In this document: positions 1,182 through 41,034 of the stretch, piece by piece
How positions within the stretch are numbered: position 1 is the first letter of the stretch
Layout: every line of letters starts with the position of its first letter
NCBI GenBank assembly: GCA_014879675.1
Contig: JACSRQ010000094.1
Coordinates: 1 to 41,055 of the forward strand
DNA from: Ignavibacteria bacterium
GTDB taxonomy: Bacteria > Bacteroidota > Ignavibacteria > Tepidaquicellales > OLB5
DNA length: 41,055 nucleotides
Reading direction: 5' to 3'
The notes under the pieces: generated by a model
What the model was told of the DNA's origin: nothing
Seen by the model: only the letters and a program-made list of their open reading frames with translations
The model's database searches: none
Translations under genes and position numbers: made by a program

Positions 1182-4097
1182 ATGAAAATGAAAGTTTTAA
1201 TACTGCTGGCTTTATTCTGCACCGCTTACTCCCATGCGCAGGAGCGGAACATTAACGACATACTAAAATATACGCTTTCCTACCGGGGAATCACCGAGCG
1301 GGATATAACTATTCCCATAGATTTCTTCTCGCAGGCGGAAAAATCACCCACCAACGATGCGAAGCTTTTGCTGCCACTGGTAAGAGATATGATGATAATT
1401 CCCATGAGCAGCAATCAATGGCTGGATAGCATAAGCTCAAAGAGTAACACTAATAGATCCGGACTGGTAAGACTGATGTTTGATTTACTTTCATACAAAA
1501 AACTCGATTTTGAAGATATTTCTATAGAGTATGGCCATAAAGACCTTGAGGCTGTTTCAATTTTCATAAAGGAGAATATTTCACAGGATAAAAGCAGGAT
1601 GAATAAAGCATTAACCAAGATATCAGATGAGGACAAGAATTTTCTTAGTAAACATCTCCTTTCAATTCTTGATGAAGGAGATGACGATTATCCCAATGTA
1701 TCCGATATCCTTGTTTATAACCAGCGCCGCGATTCTTCTTTAGATAGATCTAAAAGGGTTATGGATATATTGACCAAAATGTATGGACCTGATGAAGAAC
1801 TAAACTCACCCGGCAGCTTGAGAAATTTCTCACTTTCAAACCTGCATTTTGCACTCACAATTGAAGAATTAATAACTCAGCACGTTAAAAATGAACCCTT
1901 AGATAACAAAAATACCAATTATGTTCAGGGCGGATTCTATTACTACTCAAATGAAAACGGCATACGCATTGCTATTGGCGGACCCGGTAAAAATACATAC
2001 ACCGGTAAATTCGATTTCATCATAGATCTCGGCGGTGATGATATATATAACGTAGATCATCCCCCCCTTACGAAAGGGGAATTATCAATGGGCGGATTTA
2101 GCTGCATCATCGATCTGGCCGGCAACGACTACTATACTACATCAAGCGATTTTGCGCTTGCTGGCGGATTGTTCTCTTCATCATTCATTTTCGATAAATC
2201 TGGTGATGATTATTATGAGTCAAAAGGCTCAGGTAATCTCGGCGCCGCGATCGGCGGCCTGGGTCTGCTATATGATGAAAAAGGAAACGATACCTATAAA
2301 GGACTTTCGTTTTCAATCGGCGCCGGATGTTTTGGTGTTGGATTGCTTGTTGATAGAGAAGGCAATGATTTCTACATAGCCAATTCATATTCTCAAGGAT
2401 TTGGAATGACGCAGGGTGTTGGCGCAATTGTTGATAATAAAGGAAATGATTCTTACCTTATCGATTCACGCTCGCTGGATATCGGCAGGTATAACGACCA
2501 TTATGTATCAATGTGCCAGGGTTATGGACTTGGTTTGAGGCCTTTTTATGCGGGCGGTATCGGACTCATTATCGAAGGCGAAGGCAATGATATTTATAAC
2601 ACAGATATTTTCGGACAGGGCGGCGCGTATTGGTATTCACTCGGCGCAATTGTTGATAAAGGCGGGCATGATAAATACAACGGCTACCAGTATTCGCAGG
2701 GTGCGGGTATTCATTTAGCTGTTGGACTGATTAAAGATTATGACGGATGGGATTTCTACCAGTCAAACGGCGTTTCACAGGGATGCGGCCATGATTTCGG
2801 ATTCGGTATGCTGTGGGATGTTAAGGGCAACGATAACTATTCCGCTTACTCGCTTTCGCAGGGTGCCGGCAATGCTGATGGTATAGGCATACTGATTGAT
2901 GAAAGCGGAACGGATGGCTACCTGAATAAATATCCCTCCAACACAAACGGTTATGGCAATGCGCGGCGGGAGTATGGAAGTATCGGTATATTTCTTGATG
3001 CTTCAGGAACTGACTATTACTCAAAGCCGGGTTTTGATAGTACACTAACCAATTCCTCAACTTGGGGCACGGCTAATGATTTCTGGCTGGGCGATCTGCC
3101 GGAACAGGTAAGCGGTGATAATTACAAGGTGCCTGTTGATTCAGCATCGAATTCAAATCCCTCAAACAATAGCATTCCAAATACGAATCCGGGCAACTAC
3201 TCTACCGCAGATTATTTCGCTATGGCAAAAACCATTGAGCCTCGGTTCAGTCTCTGGCAGGAATACGGCTTCCGTAAGCTCATCGAAGATAGTACCAATA
3301 CTGCAAAGTATATTACAACCAAATTTAATACTACCGATCACCGCGATGTACAGGTTTTCCGTGTACTCGCCATTAAGATACAATGGTCGATAGCCCATGA
3401 GCTTATTGAAAAGCTCAGGCTTTATACGCTGGGACAGGCAGTTTATACGCAGAGTGAGATCAGCATGATATGTTATGTTTTCGGCGAAACCCGTGACCCT
3501 TCGGCGAAAGAATACCTGCTTAAGCTGACCGGTGACAGCAATTATAAGATACGTTCATCGGCAATAAACGCATTGGGTAAGATAAAGTATGACCAGGGTG
3601 ATGCGGCATTCTTGAGCAAAGCGGCTGAAAGACTGCGAACGCTGGCAATGGAAGATTCAGATAAGAAGCTTTACCGCAAGGATATTACTTTTGCGTTGAA
3701 CAATTTCCGCACACCTGAAAATATTCCCGTACTGATGCACTTGCTGAAAGATGATTTCTACGGGCCGCGCTTTGTTGCATCCGATAACCTGCGCGCATTT
3801 GGTGATAGCTATTTTGCATACATTAATGAAAGCGCCATATACAGCATTTCTGATTCACATACGTGGCTGAATCCGTTTTTGTATTCATTGCTCTCACTCA
3901 ATGAAGGTAATTTCAGAAGTGTAATTGAACTGCTCCTGGAAAAATTTCCAAACTCCGATGGGCTGATGTATGAAAATATTGTAGATGTTCTGAAGCAGCG
4001 TAAACAAAGCAGCACCGATGCCGGGTTTAATTCCTGGTGCGAAGAGCTGATCACTGCATTTCAATCCCGCCTGAATTCCAGAATAATGCTAAAGTAG
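1182..4097 (+). CDS. Secreted GND-repeat protein with C-terminal HEAT-like domain
   Basis: 971 residues. Residues 1-20 form a signal peptide ending SHAQ. After an ~260-residue N-terminal region of no known family, residues ~260-620 carry about a dozen repeats of 26-29 residues with consensus G-N/D-D-x-Y ... SQG-x-G ... GxGxLxDxxG. The Gly/Asp spacing recalls RTX-like calcium-binding beta-roll repeats, but the unit is about three times a nonapeptide, so calcium binding is only inferred. An Asn/Ser/Pro linker (~645-675) leads to an alpha-helical end with HEAT/PBS-lyase-like repeats (SAKEYLLKLTGDSNYKIRSSAINALGKI). There is no T9SS tail. One repeat is two residues longer and contains HPPLTKGEL, coded by a CCCCTT-AAGGGG palindrome (see findings). 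The gene stands alone, followed by a repeat-filled spacer. Function unknown. Confidence 0.85.
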   Translation: MKMKVLILLALFCTAYSHAQERNINDILKYTLSYRGITERDITIPIDFFSQAEKSPTNDAKLLLPLVRDMMIIPMSSNQWLDSISSKSNTNRSGLVRLMFDLLSYKKLDFEDISIEYGHKDLEAVSIFIKENISQDKSRMNKALTKISDEDKNFLSKHLLSILDEGDDDYPNVSDILVYNQRRDSSLDRSKRVMDILTKMYGPDEELNSPGSLRNFSLSNLHFALTIEELITQHVKNEPLDNKNTNYVQGGFYYYSNENGIRIAIGGPGKNTYTGKFDFIIDLGGDDIYNVDHPPLTKGELSMGGFSCIIDLAGNDYYTTSSDFALAGGLFSSSFIFDKSGDDYYESKGSGNLGAAIGGLGLLYDEKGNDTYKGLSFSIGAGCFGVGLLVDREGNDFYIANSYSQGFGMTQGVGAIVDNKGNDSYLIDSRSLDIGRYNDHYVSMCQGYGLGLRPFYAGGIGLIIEGEGNDIYNTDIFGQGGAYWYSLGAIVDKGGHDKYNGYQYSQGAGIHLAVGLIKDYDGWDFYQSNGVSQGCGHDFGFGMLWDVKGNDNYSAYSLSQGAGNADGIGILIDESGTDGYLNKYPSNTNGYGNARREYGSIGIFLDASGTDYYSKPGFDSTLTNSSTWGTANDFWLGDLPEQVSGDNYKVPVDSASNSNPSNNSIPNTNPGNYSTADYFAMAKTIEPRFSLWQEYGFRKLIEDSTNTAKYITTKFNTTDHRDVQVFRVLAIKIQWSIAHELIEKLRLYTLGQAVYTQSEISMICYVFGETRDPSAKEYLLKLTGDSNYKIRSSAINALGKIKYDQGDAAFLSKAAERLRTLAMEDSDKKLYRKDITFALNNFRTPENIPVLMHLLKDDFYGPRFVASDNLRAFGDSYFAYINESAIYSISDSHTWLNPFLYSLLSLNEGNFRSVIELLLEKFPNSDGLMYENIVDVLKQRKQSSTDAGFNSWCEELITAFQSRLNSRIMLK

Positions 4098-4147: not shown

Positions 4148-4265
4148 CGTGCCGTAGGCATGTAATATTGGTAGCTTTCGGTATGTTCTGTTATCCCGTC
4201 CCGTACGGGACGGAATACCGAGGGGGCCTCTGTTTCTACCAATATGCAATCCCTAACGGGATTGT
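4148..4265 (-). repeat. Family C nested-hairpin element, copy C1 (reverse orientation)
   Basis: In order: small palindrome TGCCGTAGGCA (4150-4160), stem arm ATATTGGTAG (4165-4174), central palindrome CGTCCCGTACGGGACG (4197-4212), matching arm CTACCAATAT (4236-4245), and outer palindrome AATCCCTAACGGGATT (4248-4263). The two stem arms pair perfectly over 10 bases and enclose the central hairpin. It is homologous to 8755-8904, 10548-10697 and 10991-11092 on the opposite strand. Confidence 0.85.
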
Positions 4266-4323: not shown

Positions 4324-4356
4324 ATTCATCCGATGACTCCAAGTCATCGGATGAAT
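4324..4356. repeat. Family B palindrome B1
   Basis: Perfect 15-base arms ATTCATCCGATGACT / AGTCATCGGATGAAT around a three-base loop, in a spacer between convergent genes. The other copies (8509-8614, 22930-22993, 30293-30357) have ~34-35-base loops. No T-tract follows, so it is not a standard intrinsic terminator. Confidence 0.85.
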
Positions 4357-4497: not shown

Positions 4498-4513
4498 TAT
4501 GTTCCAGAAGCTA

Positions 4514-4604
4514 CTCGTTCCACGAAATCAGTTCTGCAGGAAAAGTGTAAGATTGATGATTGATGCATTTTCAAGAAATAGCGCGTGGGTATTCGTGGCA
4601 CGAG
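4514..4604 (-). mobile_element. Family E MITE-like element E1
   Basis: 91 bp bounded by inverted ends CTCGTTCCACGAA and TTCGTGGCACGAG (12 of 13 pair). In reverse complement it shares GAAAATGCAT and the left end with E2 (29697-29787, also 91 bp), and TTTTTCCTGCAGAACTGA plus the right end with E3 (40601-40693). It is non-coding. No convincing target-site duplication is visible. Confidence 0.7.
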
Positions 4605-4609
4605 AATTG

Positions 4610-4783
4610 CTTGTCATACCTGCGGAAGCAGGTATCTAGCGGTGAATTTTAGAAGGAACGAATATCCAGAGTACCAGCAGATTCTGGAAGATGGGGTCTA
4701 TAGATCATAAATTAACCCGTGCCAAAAATTTTATCTCTATTATTGTTTTGGGTCTGGATACCTGCCTTCGCAGGTATGACAAG
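4610..4783 (-). mobile_element. Family D MITE-like element D1
   Basis: 174 bp with ~27-base terminal inverted repeats: CTTGTCATACCTGCGGAAGC at the left and its near-perfect complement at 4757-4783. Each terminal repeat is itself a palindrome (ATACCTGC...GCAGGTAT). The interior, read in reverse complement, aligns with D2 (29926-30133) over its last ~90 bases (shared words CATCTTCCA, CGTTCCTTC, CTAGATACCTGC). Non-coding. Confidence 0.7.
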
Positions 4784-4808
4784 CTGACGTGGCACGAGGA
4801 AAATAGAT

Positions 4809-8502: not shown

Positions 8503-8508
8503 TTTCAC

Positions 8509-8614
8509 TTATCCGATGACACACTCATCCGATGACTCCTACGTTTTTCACTCATCCGATGACTCAAATTTCCCAAATCCTCAGGCCTAGATTAATCCCA
8601 GTCATCGGATGAGT
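8509..8614. repeat. Family B cluster B2 (three left arms, one right arm)
   Basis: Left arm ACTCATCCGATGACT occurs at 8523-8537 and 8550-8564, with a degenerate copy from 8509. The single right arm AGTCATCGGATGAGT is at 8600-8614. The loop words CAAATTTC and AAATCCTCAGG resemble the loop of B4. It looks like a B element whose left half has been duplicated. The spacer is convergent. Confidence 0.8.
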
Positions 8615-8754
8615 AGGGGCCTTATCTATTTCTATCTTTATGTAGGGAATGCATCTTGGCCATTTTTGAAATGCTTTGTGTGTATCTTAATTCGACGTGA
8701 TCAAAGCAAACGGGTGAACTTCGTGATGCATTCCTGAATACTGTTGAAACTATA

Positions 8755-8904
8755 CATAATCCCGCTAGGGATTGAATATGGGTAGAACCAAATGCGCCCG
8801 CATTATTCCGTCCCGTACGGGACGGGATAGAAGGGGGCAACCGATGGCTACCAGTATCTCGTGCCTAACGGCACTCTTGGATAATTCTGCAATCCGGTAT
8901 ATAC
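8755..8904 (+). repeat. Family C nested-hairpin element, copy C2
   Basis: AATCCCGCTAGGGATT (8758-8773), then GAATATGGGTAGAACC, the central CGTCCCGTACGGGACG hairpin, GGCTACCAGTAT, GTGCCTAACGGCAC, and a tail TTGGATAATTCTGCAATCC shared with C3. TCGTGATGCATTCC, found downstream of C3 and C4, occurs upstream of C2 at 8721-8734. Confidence 0.85.
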
Positions 8905-8925
8905 AATGGCACCTTTAATTGGTGA

Positions 8926-10362
8926 TTATTTCAACAGACACATTTTTTTCGTGTCCACTATTACTCCATCTATTGATAACTGATAAAAATAAATTCCGCT
9001 GCTTAAATTGTTCGCTGTGAAATCAAACTTGTGATTACCTGCATTATAAAATTTACCGGTTCGAATTTCTAATACTTTGCCGGTAATATCAAAAATTTTG
9101 ATCTTCACAACGCCGCTTTTTGCTAATGAAAAAGTAATTGTAGTATTGGGATTGAATGGGTTGGGGTAGTTTTGATATAGTTTAAAATTTTTCGGAATGA
9201 TTTCTGAATGATTATTGATACCAATATACACGGGGGTATTTAACATACTGTCAGTTCTTACACAATATACAACTCTTGCGTATGAAGGTAATAGCTGTGC
9301 CGTACCTGCAAAGAAAATATCTCCATTTGAAATGGGAGTAATAGCTCTTAGTGAACCCCACCTGAAATTCGAATTCGTAAAAACCGCCTTCTTTGTAATA
9401 TTGCCGATTGAATCAGAGATTATTCCTATCCCGTTATATAGCGTGGATATTGAATCCCTTTCATAACAAAAAACGAATCTATTATTGTTGATTACGGAAA
9501 AACTTCCGAACCGTTCATGTCGCCCATTAACGGGAAATGTCCTTGTGTAAATACTGTCACCATTTAGATCAGTTTTCATAAAGCATAATTGTGCTTTGTC
9601 AGAATCAACTGTTCCTCCCCCAATGTACAAACTTTGCCCCGTTTTAATGATTTCACGTCCACTTGCCGCATTATTCTTAACATAGTAGTTCTTTTGCCAT
9701 AATGAATCTCCATTAGAACTTAGGCTCACAATTATCAACTGATTTCTATCACCTAGAAAACTCGATTCTATTCCTGTCAGGATATATCCTGTACCATTTA
9801 AGGTTACTGAATAAAAACTTTTTAAGAATGTGGAAGAGAATAACTTCACCCACATCAAATTTCCTGACGAATCAATCTTGATAGCAGTACCTTGGTAAGG
9901 CGGATAAGAACTTGTGCCACAGATTATATATCCTTTATCAGTTGTCACTTTAATGTCACGAATATTACTTGATAGCGGTAAGTAGTTTTTATACCAGATC
10001 AAATTTCCGTTCACATCCAATTTACATGAATATATAGAATCATTATTTCCCGAGATTACAATTCCGCCATCTCCAGTGGGTGTAACACAATTACCTTCAG
10101 TCACTTCATTAGGATAAGAGAGAATTGTTCTTGTCCATATAGTATCCCCATACTCATTGATCTTCATAGCCATGATACTCGTACCAATGCCAGATATGAT
10201 CGTAGAACCAGCAATTACGAAATTTCCGTCAATAGTCTGACAAGCATCATTGCCTACCCACATGCTATTTTTCTCGTATGTCCTTTGCCAGGTAATACTT
10301 TGGGAAAAAATATTCTGGCTAAACAACATTGCAACAAATATCAGCAGGATTTTCCACTTCAT
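8926..10362 (-). CDS. T9SS-sorted secreted protein (propeller-like)
   Basis: 478 residues from ATG at 10362, which begins signal peptide MKWKILLIFVAMLFSQ. An upstream in-frame ATG (10401) would only add 13 polar residues before the signal. The body has repeated blades of the kind DGGIVISGNND / DKGYIICGTSS / NGDIFFAGTAQ, each followed by ...KLDVNGNLIWYK-type strands, typical of secreted beta-propellers in this group. The last ~85 residues are a T9SS type A sorting domain (YQNYPNPFNPNTTI ... SSGIYFYQL ... KKMCLLK), which directs export through the outer membrane and surface attachment. It is flanked on both sides by family B and C repeats. The ligand or activity is unknown. Confidence 0.85.
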   Translation of the reverse strand: MKWKILLIFVAMLFSQNIFSQSITWQRTYEKNSMWVGNDACQTIDGNFVIAGSTIISGIGTSIMAMKINEYGDTIWTRTILSYPNEVTEGNCVTPTGDGGIVISGNNDSIYSCKLDVNGNLIWYKNYLPLSSNIRDIKVTTDKGYIICGTSSYPPYQGTAIKIDSSGNLMWVKLFSSTFLKSFYSVTLNGTGYILTGIESSFLGDRNQLIIVSLSSNGDSLWQKNYYVKNNAASGREIIKTGQSLYIGGGTVDSDKAQLCFMKTDLNGDSIYTRTFPVNGRHERFGSFSVINNNRFVFCYERDSISTLYNGIGIISDSIGNITKKAVFTNSNFRWGSLRAITPISNGDIFFAGTAQLLPSYARVVYCVRTDSMLNTPVYIGINNHSEIIPKNFKLYQNYPNPFNPNTTITFSLAKSGVVKIKIFDITGKVLEIRTGKFYNAGNHKFDFTANNLSSGIYFYQLSIDGVIVDTKKMCLLK

Positions 10363-10515
10363 GTTTTCACTTCTTGTGCGGGATTTAGGATTTAAGGTCA
10401 TTTTTGGTCAATATCCAACATGTATTGGTAATATTGAGTACAAATTAACAGAGTTTTTTGCGGGATGCAACAACAAAAACTCATAGGATTCGGTTTATGG
10501 CACAATTGTTTACAG

Positions 10516-10530
10516 ACTCATACGATGACT
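10516..10530 (+). repeat. Family B half element B3
   Basis: ACTCATACGATGACT is one left arm with a single change, followed by CAAACTTCTGAAAT, which resembles the loop of B2. No right arm is present. Confidence 0.6.
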
Positions 10531-10547
10531 CAAACTTCTGAAATTAT

Positions 10548-10697
10548 ACATAATCCCGTTAGGGATTGAATATGGGTAGAACCAAATGCGCCCCCCATTA
10601 TTCCGTCCCGTACGGGACGGGATAACATGGGCAATCGATGGCTACCAATATCTCGTGCCTAACGGCACTCTTGGATAATTCTGCAATCCGGTATATA
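10548..10697 (+). repeat. Family C nested-hairpin element, copy C3
   Basis: Close to C2 over the whole length. Stem arms ATATGGGTAG and CTACCAATAT match in 9 of 10 positions around the central CGTCCCGTACGGGACG. The tail is identical to C2 up to GGTATATACA. Confidence 0.85.
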
Positions 10698-10723
10698 CAT
10701 TCCCAAACTGGAGTTTGGGAATG
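10698..10723. repeat. Perfect 12-base hairpin CATTCCCAAACT
   Basis: Arms CATTCCCAAACT / AGTTTGGGAATG around GG. An identical copy at 11093-11118 directly follows C4, so the hairpin travels with the C element in this array. It is absent after C2. Confidence 0.8.
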
Positions 10724-10778
10724 AGAGGAATATCGTGATGCATTCCTAAATATCATCAAACCACCCCAACATCATTTC

Positions 10779-10952
10779 GCCCTTTCAGGGCTTTTTTCTT
10801 TCTGCTTGATCACGATGGGCTGCGCCCATTGCTGATATATCTTGCCCTTTCAGGGCTGGATAATGATTCACATAAGCTCCGTAGGAGCGGCATGTTTGTA
10901 GAGGATAGCGCAAGATTAGATCAAGCTCCGCTCCGAAGGAGCCCCTTTGGGG
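10779..10952. repeat. String of six short palindromes
   Basis: GCCCTTTCAGGGC followed by six T (10779-10797, terminator-like), ATGGGCTGCGCCCAT (10815-10829), GCCCTTTCAGGGC again (10844-10856), GCTCCGTAGGAGC (10876-10888), GCTCCGAAGGAGC (10930-10942) and CCCCTTTGGGG (10942-10952). GGAGCGGCATGTT follows the GCTCC hairpins twice. Confidence 0.8.
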
Positions 10953-10990
10953 TAGGAGCGGCATGTTACGAAATGTATTATGACGAACTC

Positions 10991-11092
10991 AATCCCGCTA
11001 GGGATTGAATATGGGTAGAACCAAATCCGTCCTCCCATTATTCCGTCCCGTACCTAACGGCACTCTTGGATGGCTCTGTAATCAGTTAAATA
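10991..11092 (+). repeat. Family C element C4, internally deleted
   Basis: It starts with AATCCCGCTAGGGATT and GAATATGGGTAGAACC as in C3, but jumps from CCGTCCCGTAC straight to CTAACGGCACTCTTGG. The right half of the central palindrome and the CTACCAATAT arm are missing. Confidence 0.85.
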
Positions 11093-11118
11093 CATTCCCA
11101 AACTGGAGTTTGGGAATG
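11093..11118. repeat. Second copy of the CATTCCCAAACT hairpin
   Basis: Identical arms and GG loop to 10698-10723. A degenerate extra arm (GGAGTTTGGAAATGAG) follows at 11127-11142. Confidence 0.8.
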
Positions 11119-11187
11119 AGTAGTGCCGGAGTTTGGAAATGAGAGGAATATCGTGATGCATTCCAGAATATCATCAAACCACCCCAA

Positions 11188-11213
11188 CATCAGTTGACTG
11201 CCGTCAACTGATG
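11188..11213. repeat. Perfect 11-base hairpin CATCAGTTGAC
   Basis: CATCAGTTGAC (11188-11198), loop TGCC, GTCAACTGATG (11203-11213). It occupies the place where the first copy of the array has GCCCTTTCAGGGC, directly after the shared CACCCCAACATCA. Confidence 0.8.
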
Positions 11214-11217
11214 TTTG

Positions 11218-11256
11218 CCCTTCCTTGCGACTGCTGGCGCAGTTAAAAAGGAGGGG
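11218..11256 (-). repeat. Family F-like hairpin with nested tip
   Basis: CCCTTCCTT ... AAGGAGGGG clamp enclosing GACTGCTGGCGCAGTT, a variant of the CTGACTGCTTTAGCAGTT tip seen in F1 and F2. It lacks the flanking F body. Confidence 0.6.
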
Positions 11257-11280
11257 AGCTATAAACATTAAATACAATCC

Positions 11281-11305
11281 CTCCCTCTCCTCTCAGGAGA
11301 GGGAG
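11281..11305. repeat. Purine/pyrimidine 11-base hairpin
   Basis: CTCCCTCTCCT / AGGAGAGGGAG around CTC, followed by TCGGAGGGTGAGGTGA. A related word (CTTCTCCCAACCCTCTCC) is at 40734-40752. Confidence 0.7.
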
Positions 11306-11373
11306 TCGGAGGGTGAGGTGATCAAATTTTGATTCTCTCTCAATCCGGGATAAGTTTCAGGTAATGTTTTAAA

Positions 11374-12825
11374 TCAACTCAGCTTACCAATAAGCCAGCT
11401 TTTGAAGTTAACCGAGTTATCCGCTTCTATTTCTCTGCGCATTTCTTCTGCGCTCAGTTTTGCTTTGCCGGTTCTTAGATCAATAATATTCTTACAGTAT
11501 TTCAAAAAATTCCCGGTGATGTTCCGGTAATATTCAGAAACCCCCTTATTTTTAGCCACAAAATGTTTGTATGTATCAATAAGCGAAATTGCTTCTTCGA
11601 TGTGATTCAGTTCAATATATATGCGCAATGTCAGATTCCTTACATCGAACTTCAGCGTAAATATGTCGAAGTCAACTTTATTAAGCATGGCAAGCGAGCC
11701 TTCATAATTCCCCCGTTCAAACATCAGGTGTGCATTGGCGTATTTTGTCATGTTCTCCCTGATATTATCCGGCAGTTTCTCTGAATACTTCGCAACGAAT
11801 TCTTCGGCCCACTCTACTTCATTCAGCTGCAGGGCACTTGTAAGTATCTGCCTGTAAAGCAGCAGCCTCATGTTCCTTCCATCAGGCAGGTACACGCCGG
11901 CATCAAGCCGCAGCTTGTTTATCTCGAACAGCTCGCGCCTGTAACGCTCACGGTCTATTGTTGTCATCTTCTGCCAGCAAATGGCTTCGGCCATCTGGTA
12001 AATATTATACTTCTCAAAATCCTGGATGTAGTTTATAGCTTCAGGTAATACCTGTTTCAGCTCGGCAAAATATGATTCATCTTCCTCTTTCATGTAGTTA
12101 AGGATAAACAGCACATATATTCTCATAGCCTTCCGTGTCTCGCCTGTTTCATCACTTACAGCCATAAGCTTATCCATCTTTTCCAGGTTAATGGCGGATA
12201 CAAAGTCGTTTATGAAAGCGCTTTCTTTAACATTAAAAATTACCTTATTCACCTTTATGTTGTGTATATAATAAGAAAGCCTGAGTATAAAATGATAGAT
12301 CAGGTATTCTATTTCACTTTTAAAATTATGCGAGATCTCTGATTGCCTGTTCTTCGCAAGATTTATCTGTACATATCTTTCTTCATAGTCCAGCCTGTTC
12401 TTAATGTACTCCGCGCTAATAGGTCCCGTTTCGCCTATCATTTTTATAATATGTTCAAGCTCTTTTTCGGCTTCTTTATGTAATCCCCTTCTGCTGTATT
12501 CAAACGATCTCAGGAAGCGCGCTTCCACGGGATTGGAGTCCTGCACTTTTACATACATGTAGTTATCCATCAGCTTCTTAAGGTCGCTGGTCAGTCTTCG
12601 TACTGTATCATCGCTGTATTCTTTGCCGGGGTATATTGCCTGGAATATTTTCTTCCTTTCGACCTTCTTTTCCTCAAACGCCGGGAAGTGTTTTTTCAAT
12701 TCTTCATAAAATCGGGTCAAGCTGGGCTGATTATTGAAATATGGAGAAATTATGAACTTATCAAATTCTTTGATTTCCTCCTTTGAGAAGGTTTTAAGTA
12801 CCGAAATGACCGATGTGTTTTCCAT
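11374..12825 (-). CDS. All-helical ~480-residue protein, paralogue 1
   Basis: 483 residues, no signal peptide, so cytoplasmic. It opens with FSKEEIKEFDKFIISPYFNN, which matches SSRQMKELGDFVNSPFFNKN in the gene at 17585-19042. The same order of charged helices and the near-end block NHIEEAISLIDTYKHFV (paralogue: GNIEEAMTEIENYRKYV) show that the two are full-length paralogues. The helix pairs suggest a TPR-like superhelix. I know similar proteins only as uncharacterised in Bacteroidetes and relatives. It is divergent from a Ycf48-like T9SS propeller gene, as is its paralogue. Function unknown; the repeated pairing hints at a shared role or control. Confidence 0.75.
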   Translation of the reverse strand: MENTSVISVLKTFSKEEIKEFDKFIISPYFNNQPSLTRFYEELKKHFPAFEEKKVERKKIFQAIYPGKEYSDDTVRRLTSDLKKLMDNYMYVKVQDSNPVEARFLRSFEYSRRGLHKEAEKELEHIIKMIGETGPISAEYIKNRLDYEERYVQINLAKNRQSEISHNFKSEIEYLIYHFILRLSYYIHNIKVNKVIFNVKESAFINDFVSAINLEKMDKLMAVSDETGETRKAMRIYVLFILNYMKEEDESYFAELKQVLPEAINYIQDFEKYNIYQMAEAICWQKMTTIDRERYRRELFEINKLRLDAGVYLPDGRNMRLLLYRQILTSALQLNEVEWAEEFVAKYSEKLPDNIRENMTKYANAHLMFERGNYEGSLAMLNKVDFDIFTLKFDVRNLTLRIYIELNHIEEAISLIDTYKHFVAKNKGVSEYYRNITGNFLKYCKNIIDLRTGKAKLSAEEMRREIEADNSVNFKSWLIGKLS

Positions 12826-12984: not shown

Positions 12985-15075
12985 ATGAATAAAAAACTTC
13001 TTTTTCTATTAGCATTATTGTTTGGCGGCAATGTGCTGTACAGCCAATGGCAGGTACAGAATTATTACCCCTCTTACAGTAACTCGAATTTCATCTCATC
13101 ATCAAATACGGGCTGGGTATGCGGTACAGGCGTTGTGCGTAAAACCACAAATGCAGGAACAACCTGGGTAAATCAATACTGCATTACAACGTATTCGCTA
13201 AATGATATCTTCTTTGTAAATGCAAACACGGGGTGGGCAGTCGGCGGATTTGGTGAAATATACTATACCGCAAATGGTGGAGCAAACTGGTCAGCACAAA
13301 CATCGGGAGTGCCCTCCGGCTTATACTCGGTACACTTTGCGAATTCAACTACCGGACTTGCTTCCGGCAGCGGCGGAAAGATTGTTAGAACCACCAATGG
13401 CGGTGCCGTGTGGAGCGTTGTTACTTTCAATACAGGCGCAATTGTTAATCTGAACATGAGAAATACATCAACAGTTTATGCAACGCAGGATGATAAATTC
13501 ATTAAATCCACAAATGGCGGCATCAACTGGAGTGTTGCGGCCACGCTTACTGCGGGAATTCCGGCGGTTTCTTTTGTTGATGATAATACCGGCTATGCAG
13601 CATTGGGAACCGGCCTTGTTGCAAAAACTACCAATGCGGGCGTAAACTGGGTAAACCAGGTAACAGGAAACTCCAACTACGTTTTTGATATACATTTCAT
13701 AAATGCTTCAACAGGCTTTCTTTCATATTACAACAACGAAATTTACCGTACAACCAACGGGGGCACAAACTGGAGCCTTGTTTACACCGCAGTAGCCCCG
13801 GTCACAAGTTTCGCAACCATGAACACAAACCAGATTGTTGGCACGGGCAGTTCAGGGCATGTGATATTATCAACCAACAGCGGAGCAGCATGGCAGGTTC
13901 TGCAGCAGGGTTATTCAAACAGGGTTACCGATATTCAGTTCATCAACCAGCAGACCGGCTGGGCAGCAAACAGCAGCGATAAACTGCTTTACACTACAAA
14001 TAACGGCGCCAACTGGTCTCCTTCGGTTTCAAGCGGACTCGTAAACGCTGAACAGCTTTATTTCCTGAATTCTTCAACCGGATTTACAGCGGGAATTTCC
14101 GGCTCATTTATGAGCGGAGCATCAATCGCCTCTGTGGCAAAAACTACCAATGGCGGCATTAACTGGGTTGTAACGCAGTTTCCAGATAACGGCTCCGCAT
14201 ATAAGCTGCAGTTCGTGAATGCAACTGACGGCTTTGTACTCATCAGGACAAGTTCTCCTGTTTACAAAATTTACAAAACAAGCAATGCCGGCACCGGATG
14301 GAATGTTGTTTATACAACCTCTGAGCTGATGAATGATATTTACTTCACAACCCAGCTCAACGGATGGATGGTTGGCGAATCTGGTAAAATTTACAAAACC
14401 ACCAACGGCGGCACAAACTGGAGCTTGCAAACAACAGGTGTAAGCGACCAGCTTTTGGCGGTATTTTTCTCTAATAACAATTTTGGCTGGGCATGCGGAT
14501 TCAACGGCAGGATACTCGCAACTACCAACGGCGGAACAAATTGGAGCCAGCAGGTTTCAGGTACCACAAAAGCGCTTACTGATATCGAGTTCAGCAGCCA
14601 GCTAATTGGCTGCGCTGTTGGCGAAGACGGCCAGAGGCTAACAACAGGAAATGGCGGCGCCAACTGGCTTTCGCAATTTGAACTGTCGCAATCAGATCTC
14701 GAGACCGTAACATTTGCCGCCTCAACACAGGCCTTCATTGGCGGCGCTGAAGGATACATAGCGTCCAACTCATCAATTGTTGGCGTTAACGATCCTTCAA
14801 GCCAGATACCGGCTGTGTATTCGCTGGGGCAGAATTTCCCCAACCCTTTCAATCCCGCAACCACGATAAGTTTTTCGCTGCCGGAAAAAAACTATGCTAA
14901 ACTGGAAGTATTTGATGTTAACGGGAAACTGGTTAGCACGATCGTTGCCGGAGACCTTGAAGCAGGAGATCACAGCTATTCATTCAGCGCTTCGGATCTT
15001 TCTTCGGGAATCTATTTCTACAAACTGGCAGCGGGTGATTTTATACAGGTAAAAAAAATGATATTGGTAAAATAA
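12985..15075 (+). CDS. Ycf48-like (BNR-type) propeller with T9SS sorting domain
   Basis: 696 residues. Signal peptide MNKKLLFLLALLFGGNVLYS. Residues ~30-600 hold about 13 blades marked by K-T-T-N-G-G-x-N-W (variants TTNAGTTW, STNSGAAW, TGNGGANW), each preceded by I-x-F-x-(6)-G-W/F-x-x-G strands. This is the pattern of Ycf48/photosystem-assembly-like and sialidase-type propellers common among secreted proteins of this group. Residues ~611-696 are a T9SS type A domain (LGQNFPNPFNPATTI ... SSGIYFYKL ... KKMILVK). It is therefore predicted to be exported and surface-bound. It lies 29 bases before gene 15105. Ligand unknown; photosynthesis is not implied. Confidence 0.88.
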   Translation: MNKKLLFLLALLFGGNVLYSQWQVQNYYPSYSNSNFISSSNTGWVCGTGVVRKTTNAGTTWVNQYCITTYSLNDIFFVNANTGWAVGGFGEIYYTANGGANWSAQTSGVPSGLYSVHFANSTTGLASGSGGKIVRTTNGGAVWSVVTFNTGAIVNLNMRNTSTVYATQDDKFIKSTNGGINWSVAATLTAGIPAVSFVDDNTGYAALGTGLVAKTTNAGVNWVNQVTGNSNYVFDIHFINASTGFLSYYNNEIYRTTNGGTNWSLVYTAVAPVTSFATMNTNQIVGTGSSGHVILSTNSGAAWQVLQQGYSNRVTDIQFINQQTGWAANSSDKLLYTTNNGANWSPSVSSGLVNAEQLYFLNSSTGFTAGISGSFMSGASIASVAKTTNGGINWVVTQFPDNGSAYKLQFVNATDGFVLIRTSSPVYKIYKTSNAGTGWNVVYTTSELMNDIYFTTQLNGWMVGESGKIYKTTNGGTNWSLQTTGVSDQLLAVFFSNNNFGWACGFNGRILATTNGGTNWSQQVSGTTKALTDIEFSSQLIGCAVGEDGQRLTTGNGGANWLSQFELSQSDLETVTFAASTQAFIGGAEGYIASNSSIVGVNDPSSQIPAVYSLGQNFPNPFNPATTISFSLPEKNYAKLEVFDVNGKLVSTIVAGDLEAGDHSYSFSASDLSSGIYFYKLAAGDFIQVKKMILVK

Positions 15076-15104
15076 TATAAACTAAAGAAAGGAAATCTAA
15101 AAAA

Positions 15105-15434
15105 ATGTTAAAACCAATTTTAAAAACACTAATTGCTTTATTATTTGTTTCGGCAGCACTCAGCACAAATGCATACGCCGGCGATGATTTCGGCAGCCCC
15201 GAAGAAAAGGCTGCAGAGTGGACAACATGGCTCAGCAATAAAGTCGGCTTAACTTCAGACCAGTATAATCAAGTTTACAACATTTATCTAAGGTATGCCC
15301 AGCAGTATAAAGCTGATAAAGAAAAAAAGAGCGGTAAGATAAAAGGCGGGTTCAAATCTTACAGGAAAAAAGCCAACGAAGAGATCAGGCCGCTGCTTAA
15401 TGCTGACCAGCAGAAAAAATGGAAAGGCAAATAA
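15105..15434 (+). CDS. Small secreted helical protein (Spy/CpxP-like layout)
   Basis: 109 residues. Signal peptide ends TNAYA; the mature part is ~80 residues and mostly helical, with VGLTSDQYNQVYNIYLRYAQ and a final IRPLLNADQQKKWKGK. The LTxxQ ... LxxxQxxxW frame is typical of short periplasmic helical proteins of the Spy/CpxP or zinc-resistance kind, but the match is too weak to name. AAAGGAAA lies ~12 bases before the ATG. It is 29 bases downstream of the propeller gene and is closed by the terminator at 15519, so the two probably form one unit. Confidence 0.65.
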   Translation: MLKPILKTLIALLFVSAALSTNAYAGDDFGSPEEKAAEWTTWLSNKVGLTSDQYNQVYNIYLRYAQQYKADKEKKSGKIKGGFKSYRKKANEEIRPLLNADQQKKWKGK

Positions 15435-22929: not shown

Positions 22930-22993
22930 ACTCATCCGATGACTAAATATTTCTAAATCCTGAAGCAATCAATTTTTTAGTCATCGGATGAGT
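22930..22993. repeat. Family B element B4
   Basis: ACTCATCCGATGACT (22930-22944) and AGTCATCGGATGAGT (22979-22993), perfect 15-base arms with a 34-base loop containing TTCTAAATCCTGAAGC, close to the B2 loop. A degenerate arm, TCATATGATGAGTAG, follows. Confidence 0.85.
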
Positions 22994-29537: not shown

Positions 29538-29547
29538 ATCGCTTCTA

Positions 29548-29696
29548 GTCCCCCTTCGGTTTCCCTGACTGCTTTAGCAGTTGTGAAGGGGGGATGATCG
29601 CTTTCAAGCCCCATATCTCAGATTGAAAGTTGATTTCCATGAATCGATATTCCGCAAGGGGGGTTGCCTCTAAAAGCTAAACCCGATAATAATTTT
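29548..29696 (+). repeat. Family F element F1 (hairpin with nested tip)
   Basis: Clamp CCCCCTTCGG ... GAAGGGGG encloses the tip CTGACTGCTTTAGCAGTT. The body GATCGCTT ... GATTGAAAGTTGATTT ... GGGGTTGCCTCTAAAAGC matches the tandem units at 36836-37324. It abuts E2. Confidence 0.8.
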
Positions 29697-29787
29697 CTCG
29701 TGCCACGAATACCCATAAGCGATTTTCGGAAAATGCATTAATTGCAAATCTTTCATTCTTCCTTCACAACCAGATTCGTGGAACGAG
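29697..29787 (+). mobile_element. Family E MITE-like element E2
   Basis: 91 bp, ends CTCGTGCCACGAA and TTCGTGGAACGAG (12 of 13 pair). Same length as E1. Left third matches E1 (CACGAATACCCA, GAAAATGCAT). Followed by TATCTTT, similar to the TAGCTTT after E3. Confidence 0.72.
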
Positions 29788-29848
29788 TATCTTTTTCTGC
29801 CGGGTATTTCTTACCCTACAAATCCGTCAACTGTAGATCACATTATCT

Positions 29849-29882
29849 TATTTCACGCGAAGTCACTAAGGCGCAAAGATCT
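29849..29882 (+). repeat. Family A short derivative A4
   Basis: TATTTCACGCGAAGTCAC and AAGGCGCAAAGATCT, the opposite strand of the TTTGCGTCTTCGCG word seen at 4465-4497. Confidence 0.6.
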
Positions 29883-29925
29883 AAAAGCCAACCCCCGACA
29901 AACGATTTCGAGGGGTCACATGCTG

Positions 29926-30133
29926 CTCGTCATACCTGCGGAGGCAGGTATCCAGACGATAATCACCAATCGTGGTATAATTTTCAGCACCGATTGATTT
30001 GTAATTTACAGAGCTTATCTGCACCGATGAATCTTCAATTTATAAACCATATCTTCCAAAATCCGCTCGTGCCATGGAGCAACGTTCCTTCCAAACTGCA
30101 CCCCTAGATACCTGCCTCCGCAGGTATGACAAG
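29926..30133 (+). mobile_element. Family D MITE-like element D2
   Basis: 208 bp with ends CTCGTCATACCTGCGGAGGC and the near-complement CTCCGCAGGTATGACAAG. The last ~90 bases align with D1 in reverse complement; the first half differs, so D2 is a longer or mosaic copy. Confidence 0.68.
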
Positions 30134-30153
30134 CGGATTAGATTTTGCTTTTG

Positions 30154-30289
30154 TCCCCCCTTCGGCTTCCCTGACTGCTTTAGCAGTTATGAAGGGGGAA
30201 CGATCGCTTACAAAACCGAAAACACGGATTGGAAATATATTTGCGGGAATGGGTTAGTCTACAATGGGGGTTTGCTTCTAAATTGTTAG
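30154..30289 (+). repeat. Family F element F2
   Basis: Clamp CCCCCCTTCGGCTTCC ... GAAGGGGG with the same CTGACTGCTTTAGCAGTT tip as F1, then GATCGCTTACAAAACCG as in the tandem units, ending GGGGGTTTGCTTCTAAA. Confidence 0.78.
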
Positions 30290-30292
30290 TCC

Positions 30293-30357
30293 ACTCATCC
30301 GATGACTCCACTCTCTTTAATCCTCATGCAAACTGTTATCCAAGTCATCGGATGAGT
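30293..30357. repeat. Family B element B5
   Basis: ACTCATCCGATGACT (30293-30307) and AGTCATCGGATGAGT (30343-30357), perfect arms, 35-base loop. Its right arm ends five bases before the stop side of the next minus-strand gene. Confidence 0.85.
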
Positions 30358-36835: not shown

Positions 36836-37071
36836 AATGGGGTTCGCATCTAAAAGCTAAACCCCCGAAAGGAATTTTCGTTGGAAAACAATTCGGTTTC
36901 AATCACCACACAACGAAAATTGAAGCAATGCTCCCCCCTTTTCCAAAGGCGAAAGGGGTGGACGTGTTTCTTTATCATGTCCCCCCTTCCGCTTCTCAGA
37001 AGGGGGGGAAGATCGCTTACAAAACCGATAGCGGAGATTGAAAGTTGATTTGAGTTTTACGGAAAAGTAAC
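36836..37071 (+). repeat. Family F tandem unit 1 (236 bp)
   Basis: Order: GGGGTTCGCATCTAAAAGC, GGTTTCAATCACCACACAAC, hairpin 1 (CCCCCCTTTTCC...GAAAGGGG, no nested tip), GTGTTTCTTTATCATG, hairpin 2 (CCCCCCTTCCGCTTC TCA GAAGGGGGG, no nested tip), GATTGAAAGTTGATTTGAG. Hairpin 1 is hairpin 2 in reverse orientation. Confidence 0.85.
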
Positions 37072-37324
37072 AATGGGGGTTGCCTTTAAAAGCCAAACCC
37101 CCGATAATAATCTACGATGGAAAACATTCTGGTTTCAATCATCACACAACGAAAACTGAAGCAATGCTCCCCCCTTTTTAAACTGCCAAGGCAGTCAGGA
37201 AAGCGAAAGGGGTGGACGTGTTTCTTTATCATGTCCCCCCTTCCGCTTCTCAGAAGGGGGGAAGATCGCTTAAAAAGACGATAGCAAAGATTGAAAGTTG
37301 ATTTGAGTTTTACGGAAAAGTAAC
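37072..37324 (+). repeat. Family F tandem unit 2 (253 bp)
   Basis: Same order and nearly the same sequence as unit 1. It is 17 bp longer, mainly because hairpin 1 carries the nested tip AAACTGCCAAGGCAGTCAGG. A third unit begins at 37325 and stops after GGGGGTTCGCGTCTAAAAGC. Confidence 0.85.
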
Positions 37325-37357
37325 AATGGGGGTTCGCGTCTAAAAGCTCCGGGCAAT

Positions 37358-40600: not shown

Positions 40601-40693
40601 CTCGTACCACGAATTCCCAAGAGCATTTTTTATAGTTATAACGTTGATCAATGATCTAAGGTTTTTCCTGCAGAACTGATTTCGTGGAACGGA
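40601..40693 (+). mobile_element. Family E MITE-like element E3
   Basis: 93 bp, ends CTCGTACCACGAA and TTCGTGGAACGGA. The right half, TTTTTCCTGCAGAACTGA and the end, is identical to E1 in reverse complement. It begins four bases after the radical SAM stop codon. Confidence 0.68.
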
Positions 40694-41034
40694 TAGCTTT
40701 ATCTTCAGCACCAGCAAAACTTCCGCAATAACCTTCTCCCAACCCTCTCCAAAGGAGGGGGAGATGAGCAACAATCTTTAGAACAACGATATTCATTTCT
40801 GCTTACTGCCCTGGCAATTTTCAAGGAGGAATAAACCCGGCCTATGCGTCTGTTGACATCAACTATTTTATGTAACGATTGTATATATTCAGCTTTCGAG
40901 TTTGATATTCTACCCCTATAATCCCACATGTCCTCGCCGGTTCTGCGACCTTCCAGGGGGATATGATGCCACGACCTCCCCCCGGCCCCCTCCGAAGACC
41001 TTATGTTTAAATAGAAAGCCTCCTGAGAGTTTAT

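Follow-up and report, generated by a model that had tools for sequence, protein, structure and literature searches.

The stretch of DNA analysed here (the window, 41,055 nucleotides, a contig of an Ignavibacteria bacterium) contains three complete copies and one deleted copy of a palindromic element of about 117 bp, called family C in the following (Table 1). The fold runs in the order hairpin H_a, arm ATATnGGTAG, central palindrome, arm CTACCnATAT and hairpin H_b. The complete copy on the plus strand lies about 50 bp past the stop codon of the ORF at 1182-4097, between convergent genes. A preliminary description of the sequence had listed palindrome, arm, centre, complementary arm and hairpin as successive segments, an order that was confirmed in the window copies. 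The element is also real in extent, but shorter than the 120-150 bp given there, since the additional 30 bp up to 8904 and 10697 are flank which the copies at 8758-8874 and 10552-10668 have in common through a local duplication (family D7). Likewise there are four copies in the window as described, but the fourth has lost an internal part.

Table 1. Positions of family C elements, their parts and associated features in the window
Feature	Position	Strand	Remarks
Complete family C element	4149..4264	+	H_a first, orientation as in the element behind tnpA
Complete family C element	8758..8874	-	
Complete family C element	10552..10668	-	
Family C copy with internal deletion	10990..11063	-	deletion from palindrome centre into H_a stem
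H_b hairpin AATCCC-GTTA-GGGATT	10552..10567 (equivalent 8758-8773)	.	pairing by single-strand DNA folding
Outer stem arm ATATGGGTAG	10570..10579 (equivalent 8776-8785)	.	carries GTAG tag; covariation
Central palindrome TATTCCGTCCC-GTAC-GGGACGGGATA	10599..10624 (equivalent 8804-8829)	.	
Outer stem arm CTACCAATAT	10642..10651 (equivalent 8848-8857)	.	covariation
H_a hairpin GTGCC-TAAC-GGCAC	10655..10668 (equivalent 8861-8874)	.	pairing by single-strand DNA folding
Second-family composite end: hairpin GCTCCGTAGGAGC, linker, TGTAGA	10876..10902	+	family flanking the subclass-1.2 tnpA on C54
Block with three of the four copies and ORF 8926-10401	8506..11454	.	syntenic place 98 bp in genus relative G006

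We searched the source genome (3.79 Mb, 255 contigs, 94.7% complete) by blastn and found family C at 16 places, 12 of them in addition to those in the window, with E-values between 8.5e-14 and 1.5e-73. The copy on contig C27 is partial and degenerate. With no more than 2 mismatches, the 18-base central palindrome was found at 15 genomic places, all within family C copies, while the same pattern written backwards gave no match. Phage records showed no match to family C.

Folding and covariation of the elements

Folding of seven family C strands as single-stranded DNA gave z values from -2.4 to -5.4, and both strands fold. For covariation we used an alignment of 26 elements (A1), 14 from the source genome and 12 from seven relatives, which were aligned by sequence alone. 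These 26 sense elements were drawn from 46 strand-wise descriptor entries after manual trimming or reorientation of their coordinates. Neither the partial C27 copy nor the window copy with the deletion is included, and the structure used for counting pairs was written by hand. In this alignment 92.9% of 843 cells are paired, the weak spots being one central pair, open in 20 of the 26 rows, and one outer pair, open in 11. The covariation test proposed in the preliminary description was passed: all 500 shuffles fell short of the real alignment on each of five measures, and GGTAG/CTACC changes jointly to TATAG/CTATA in relatives. That description was also right that the loops vary around conserved pairing segments, as in a structure under selection. 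Among 77 elements in tnpA orientation, whose alignment was fitted to a covariance model and is hence biased towards it, one pair of the outer stem is GC in 41 rows and TA in 12, and the neighbouring pair is GC in 38 and AT in 13.

Structures of this kind might also be RNA elements, such as terminators, stabilisers of mRNA 3' ends or small RNAs, that were multiplied by chance duplication. This would agree with the good single-strand folding and with the location of the copies: none of the 16 overlaps an ORF of more than 112 aa (for 5 of them there is overlap with a short ORF, 70-112 aa long), and in three cases a stop codon precedes the element by about 50 bp. However, gene orientation is mixed. 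At the 14 places with an ORF on both sides the setting is convergent in 5, tandem in 6 and divergent in 3 cases, three of these calls depending on ORFs of 73-112 aa. Mismatches as expected for RNA are more frequent in the model-fitted 77 elements in tnpA orientation (138 G.T against 82 A.C cells, a figure not relied upon), whereas the strand test for RNA on A1 was null, with 23 G.T and 25 A.C mismatches. Both strands fold, Rfam gave no match at gathering score in the window, and chance duplication of an RNA leaves the clustering of the same architecture at tnpA genes of other genomes, described below, unexplained. We consider an origin as RNA structures unlikely, and an RNA reading of family C is unneeded. 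The association with a single-strand DNA transposase, the lack of an Rfam match in the window and the lack of a G.T excess in A1 favour, at the level of sequence, the view that the elements act as DNA.

Hairpin ends beside tnpA genes

The preliminary description saw no transposase nearby and suggested a search for a RAYT- or TnpA-like gene. Indeed no match to a Y1 transposase was found in the window, but the genome holds eight matches to PF01797, four of them strong (on contigs C37, C54, C129 and C43), and the search led to the tnpA gene on C37, which has an adjoining copy. It encodes an IS200-like protein of 156 aa (Y1, HuH). A complete family C element lies about 50 bp downstream of the stop codon, and a second, partial one follows further on; upstream the gene has no composite end. 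Chance alone would place 0.017 copies within 200 bp of one of the four strong tnpA genes. In the closest relatives of the C37 gene, whole elements flank tnpA on one side or on both.

The C37 protein matches Pfam Y1_Tnp and reaches 57.7 bits with the NCBIfam IS200 model (cut-off 55), compared to 33.2 bits with REP_Tyr_transpos (cut-off 80), which places it outside the REP-associated TnpA family. An AlphaFold2 model (pLDDT 88.9, from 28 alignment rows) is nearest to the TnpA proteins of ISDra2 and IS608, with TM about 0.55-0.6 by query length, and also matches the REP-bound RAYT 4er8 at rank 30.

The tnpA genes on C54, C129 and C43 are bracketed by palindromes other than family C, and those on C54 and C129 lie between two inner hairpins. 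Patterns composed of hairpin edge, linker and tag, with up to 2 mismatches, matched 36 times in the genome for the C54 end and 34 times for the C129 end, each including 3 matches at the gene itself; written backwards they matched 0 times and once. Paired hairpins are found at C43 as well, where no TAG tag was apparent by eye. With the dispersed repeats of family C, C54 and C129 type, three of the four tnpA genes thus each have their own repeat family.

We then looked at 80 related tnpA loci, the best 80 of 168 from one scan of named genomes, a choice that leans towards C37. A covariance model built from A1 gave 221 matches, and the best 150 of these correspond to 87 places in 35 of the 80 loci, 7 of the 35 having contributed rows to the model. 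Within these best 150, 85 of the 87 places are located within 1 kb of tnpA and none at 2-3 kb. Some weaker matches are half elements overlapping the tnpA end; an alignment that mixed these with whole elements (A3) was not used for any count. In the 45 loci with no match among the best 150, the density of perfect GC-bearing hairpins is 2.2-3.3 per kb in the 200 bp next to tnpA versus 0.3-0.55 per kb beyond 1 kb.

A descriptor independent of the model, consisting of a hairpin, 5-14 nt, TAG[AC] and a second hairpin 10-50 nt on, all read towards tnpA, showed the same concentration near the gene. Composite ends with the inner hairpin within 300 bp are present at 30 of 77 loci upstream, 34 of 72 downstream and 14 of 69 on both sides. 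Further away the numbers drop to 1/73 upstream and 3/70 downstream at 300-600 bp, 3/71 and 0/69 at 600-900 bp, and 0/70 and 0/68 at 1000-1300 bp, with none in any tested window from 1000 bp on. Without the second hairpin the descriptor matched 38/77 upstream and 39/72 downstream, and 13/77 and 23/72 in the opposite reading; the latter matches are expected, since whole elements have both their ends beside tnpA. More generally, the composite end (hairpin, linker, xxTAG, second hairpin) points at tnpA from either side. The two flanks of tnpA are mutually inverted repeats (score at least 40) in 26 of 70 loci. As controls, flanks 1200 bp away gave 0 of 58 and flanks combined from different loci 24 of 600. 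In many loci direct repeats between the flanks match or exceed the inverted ones in strength (upper quartile of the score 56 versus 47); the two kinds are about equally frequent, as tandem palindromic elements would give.

The tag also varies with the protein. When the two letters before TAG in the 600-bp flanks (GG, TA, TG or TC) were placed on the TnpA tree, 7 changes were needed, against a mean of 23.4 after shuffling, and none of 200 shuffles was as low; the figure covers the 50 of 82 rows that carry a label (three of these labels entered by hand), and near-copies in the tree help it. The descriptor covers 51 of the 78 relatives in this tree.

At three loci (L150, L148 and L141) several whole elements stand in a row beside tnpA, which suggests local amplification.

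TnpAY1 proteins were divided into 12 subclasses by Quentin and colleagues (PMC6006769). That paper describes subclass 1.2 by the Y motif Y---Q--HH, a length of about 148 aa, low copy number with few dissimilar copies per genome, and hosts that are mostly Bacteroidetes and Cyanobacteria. We found both HuH and Y---Q--HH in all four proteins of the source genome. The Y motif also occurs in 76 of the 80 relatives, among which HuH is present in 78, WQ in 79 and the class 2 motif Y--NP in none; the median TnpA length is 153 aa. By title, 78 of the 80 are Bacteroidota or Ignavibacteria, the others being Balneolaceae and Brocadia, with no Cyanobacteria among the 80. In motifs, length, host range and few dissimilar copies the proteins thus agree with subclass 1.2. 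In the same paper, the subclass is listed as "REP: no" and as generally without typical terminal secondary structures, which is contradicted by the composite hairpin ends at tnpA. As the subclass is defined on protein sequence, these ends do not exclude membership and rather extend the subclass.

One subclass-1.2-type tnpA gene with a composite end, L187, comes from a record titled outside Bacteroidota (Candidatus Brocadia sp. BIN37) and could reflect transfer or a misbinned contig.

Comparison with known systems and a proposed mechanism

Family C and its TnpA resemble REP/RAYT systems (TnpAREP, REPtron, TnpAY1 class 2) in having a small HuH/Y1 TnpA at low copy number, one repeat family per TnpA, and hairpin repeats that lie beside the gene and are dispersed in intergenic DNA. 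Family C also carries GTAG, which PMC8266576 gives as the tag and probable guide in TnpAREP. In contrast, the TnpA of family C is a class 1 protein (subclass 1.2), the element is found at only 16 places, and the tag varies in relatives (TATAG, TGTAG, TCTAG). In REP/RAYT, GT[AG]G stands at the 5' foot of the hairpin, whereas here the tag is located about 7-10 nt from the outer hairpin, before the inner palindrome. The system thus works like REP/RAYT but departs from it in two defining features, the tag at the hairpin foot and the class of the TnpA. The A1 pair counts show two inverted hairpin repeats pairing into one structure, as in REPINs, which are two inverted REPs; family C is likewise non-coding and presumably spread in trans, but differs by a conserved third, central palindrome between the paired tags.

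A Y1 tnpA between inverted repeats that can disperse is also known from TIRtrons (Di Nocera 2013, PMC3733652), whose consensus is GGGGWSAS; that article describes GTAG and CGTC repeats as well as tyrosine transposases flanked by TIRs. TIRYT proteins, unlike those studied here, belong mostly to subclass 2.1 according to PMC6006769. In the main text of the RepRanger paper (PMC12306157) neither "RAYT" nor "transposase" occurs. A literature search limited to papers outside subscription found no description, in the parts of the texts it covered, of repeats cognate to subclass 1.2.

PATEs are derivatives of IS200/IS605 elements that have lost tnpA. IS200/IS605 members (IS608, ISDra2) provide the solved structures closest to the TnpA model and have hairpins at their ends, whereas the ends in the family C system are symmetric double hairpins and there is no sign of tnpA movement. 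In a further explanation, the tnpA unit itself transposes as a classical IS200/IS605 element and family C represents its ordinary decayed ends. All four proteins score above the transpos_IS200 cut-off while the REP-transposase model is below cut-off or unmatched, and several tnpA genes do lie between inverted composite ends. Near-identical mobile copies of tnpA, a trait of IS200/IS605, are however lacking: the four strong genes encode proteins that are only 35-52% identical, adjoin different repeats and include no recent copies. Moreover, family C places outnumber their tnpA by 16 to 1, and both ends with an inner hairpin within 300 bp were seen at only the 14 of 69 loci mentioned above. We regard transposition of a classical insertion sequence as quite unlikely.

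We think it probable that family C is instead the dispersed cognate repeat of the C37 TnpA of TnpAY1 subclass 1.2, built from two head-to-head ends and moved in trans in single-stranded form. In the best reading it would be a tnpA-less, REPIN- or MITE-like pair of transposon ends. This reading builds on the recurrence and structure of the elements, their adjacency to tnpA in many genomes, the covariation, the tag tracking the TnpA tree and the variable repeat islands at syntenic places. One end would consist of the outer hairpin, the ATAT linker, the tag GGTAG and the inner palindrome; the two ends would have the inner palindrome in common and pair through their tags. A single strand exposed during replication would fold, and a TnpA dimer (HuH and one tyrosine) could then recognise the hairpins and cleave near the tag. 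The tnpA-less unit might in this way be copied or moved in trans, as has been proposed for REP/RAYT. The short element may have arisen from a unit bearing tnpA. Since the C54 and C129 genes lie between inner hairpins, the short form can be pictured as such a unit minus the gene; related tnpA genes are likewise found between the same kind of ends, yet C37 has no upstream end.

More broadly, we lean towards viewing subclass 1.2 as a separate and widespread REPtron class. Its ends would follow the grammar outer hairpin, ATAT, xxTAG, inner palindrome, its units would come from fused ends, and the tag would co-evolve with TnpA like the guides of IS200/IS605. With family C, a class of single-strand DNA transposases that was described as IS200-related but without IS and REP features would gain its DNA partner. 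The distribution of GGTAG, TATAG, TGTAG and TCTAG on the TnpA tree offers a ready test of how HuH proteins read their tags, and also of the way in which insertion sequences gave rise to REP systems.

Repeat turnover in related genomes and further repeats

Blastn found no family C in any of 14 further genomes from the same taxonomic family, among them 12 of the same genus. The preliminary description had named a lack of further copies in relatives as an observation that would speak against it; at the level of DNA this lack is real (0 of 14), but the same architecture written in other letters is present beside related tnpA genes. The covariance model gave 131 matches in the genomes of the order together with the window. 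Of 44 genomes of the order, 33 have a tnpA match, and 21 of these gave model matches (E 1e-4); of the 11 others, 2 gave weak ones (Fisher p 0.014).

Syntenic places differ strongly in length between species. The window segment 8502-11456 corresponds to 109 bp in the relative G010. On contig C196 an intergenic stretch of 728 bp is reduced to 6 bp in G005 and G013, 28 bp in G008, 65 bp in G014 and 218 bp in G006; G004 and G007 carry about 0.8 and 0.65 kb at this site. For a second copy on C196, 687 bp are opposed by 190 bp in G003, and in a wider comparison 1070 bp, about half of them ORF, by 119 bp in G005 and 79 bp in G006. We found no empty site for a single element at the window block or the two C196 copies. 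Only longer stretches are absent, 0.5-3 kb in length, and they hold several repeats and partly ORFs. As several palindromic families are carried there, the variable stretches represent turnover of repeats and not insertion of one element.

That several unrelated palindromic families stand together in the same islands and that these differ between species would also fit palindromes acting as hot spots that passively receive repeats, including tnpA, with TnpA not the agent, a very unlikely explanation given that three tnpA genes each have their own repeat family, with no common mixture, and that the tag tracks the TnpA tree.

The C196 islands (L240, 1585-2312 and about 14763-15308) measure about 0.7 and 0.55 kb and are packed with palindromic repeats of several families. 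On contig C2, at 2099-2266, four C54-type ends form a direct tandem with 49-bp spacing, so the inner hairpin of one end may double as the outer hairpin of the next. In the window, 10698-10970 and 11093-11118 form a mosaic of palindromic families other than family C. This mosaic contains CCAAACTGGAGTTTGG hairpins twice, GCCCTTTCAGGGC and GATGGGC..GCCCAT hairpins resembling those around the C43 tnpA, and GCTCCGTAGGAGC..TGTAGA as around the C54 tnpA.

Other repeats in the window include one of about 280 bp in inverted orientation at 4508-4784 and 29695-30134. Its two copies are 75-78% alike over three pieces and have internal inverted arms of 31 bp, and an extra piece of 53 bp lies at 40647-40699. 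Direct repeats rich in GGGGGG and CCCCCCTTC are located at 36836-37354, 29539-29684 and 30145-30292, with a spacing of 236-254 bp at 36.8-37.3 kb and of 606 bp at 29.5-30.3 kb. Another family consists of dispersed TCATCCGATGA / TCATCGGATGA pairs at 4326-4354, 8525-8612, 22932-22991 and 30295-30355.
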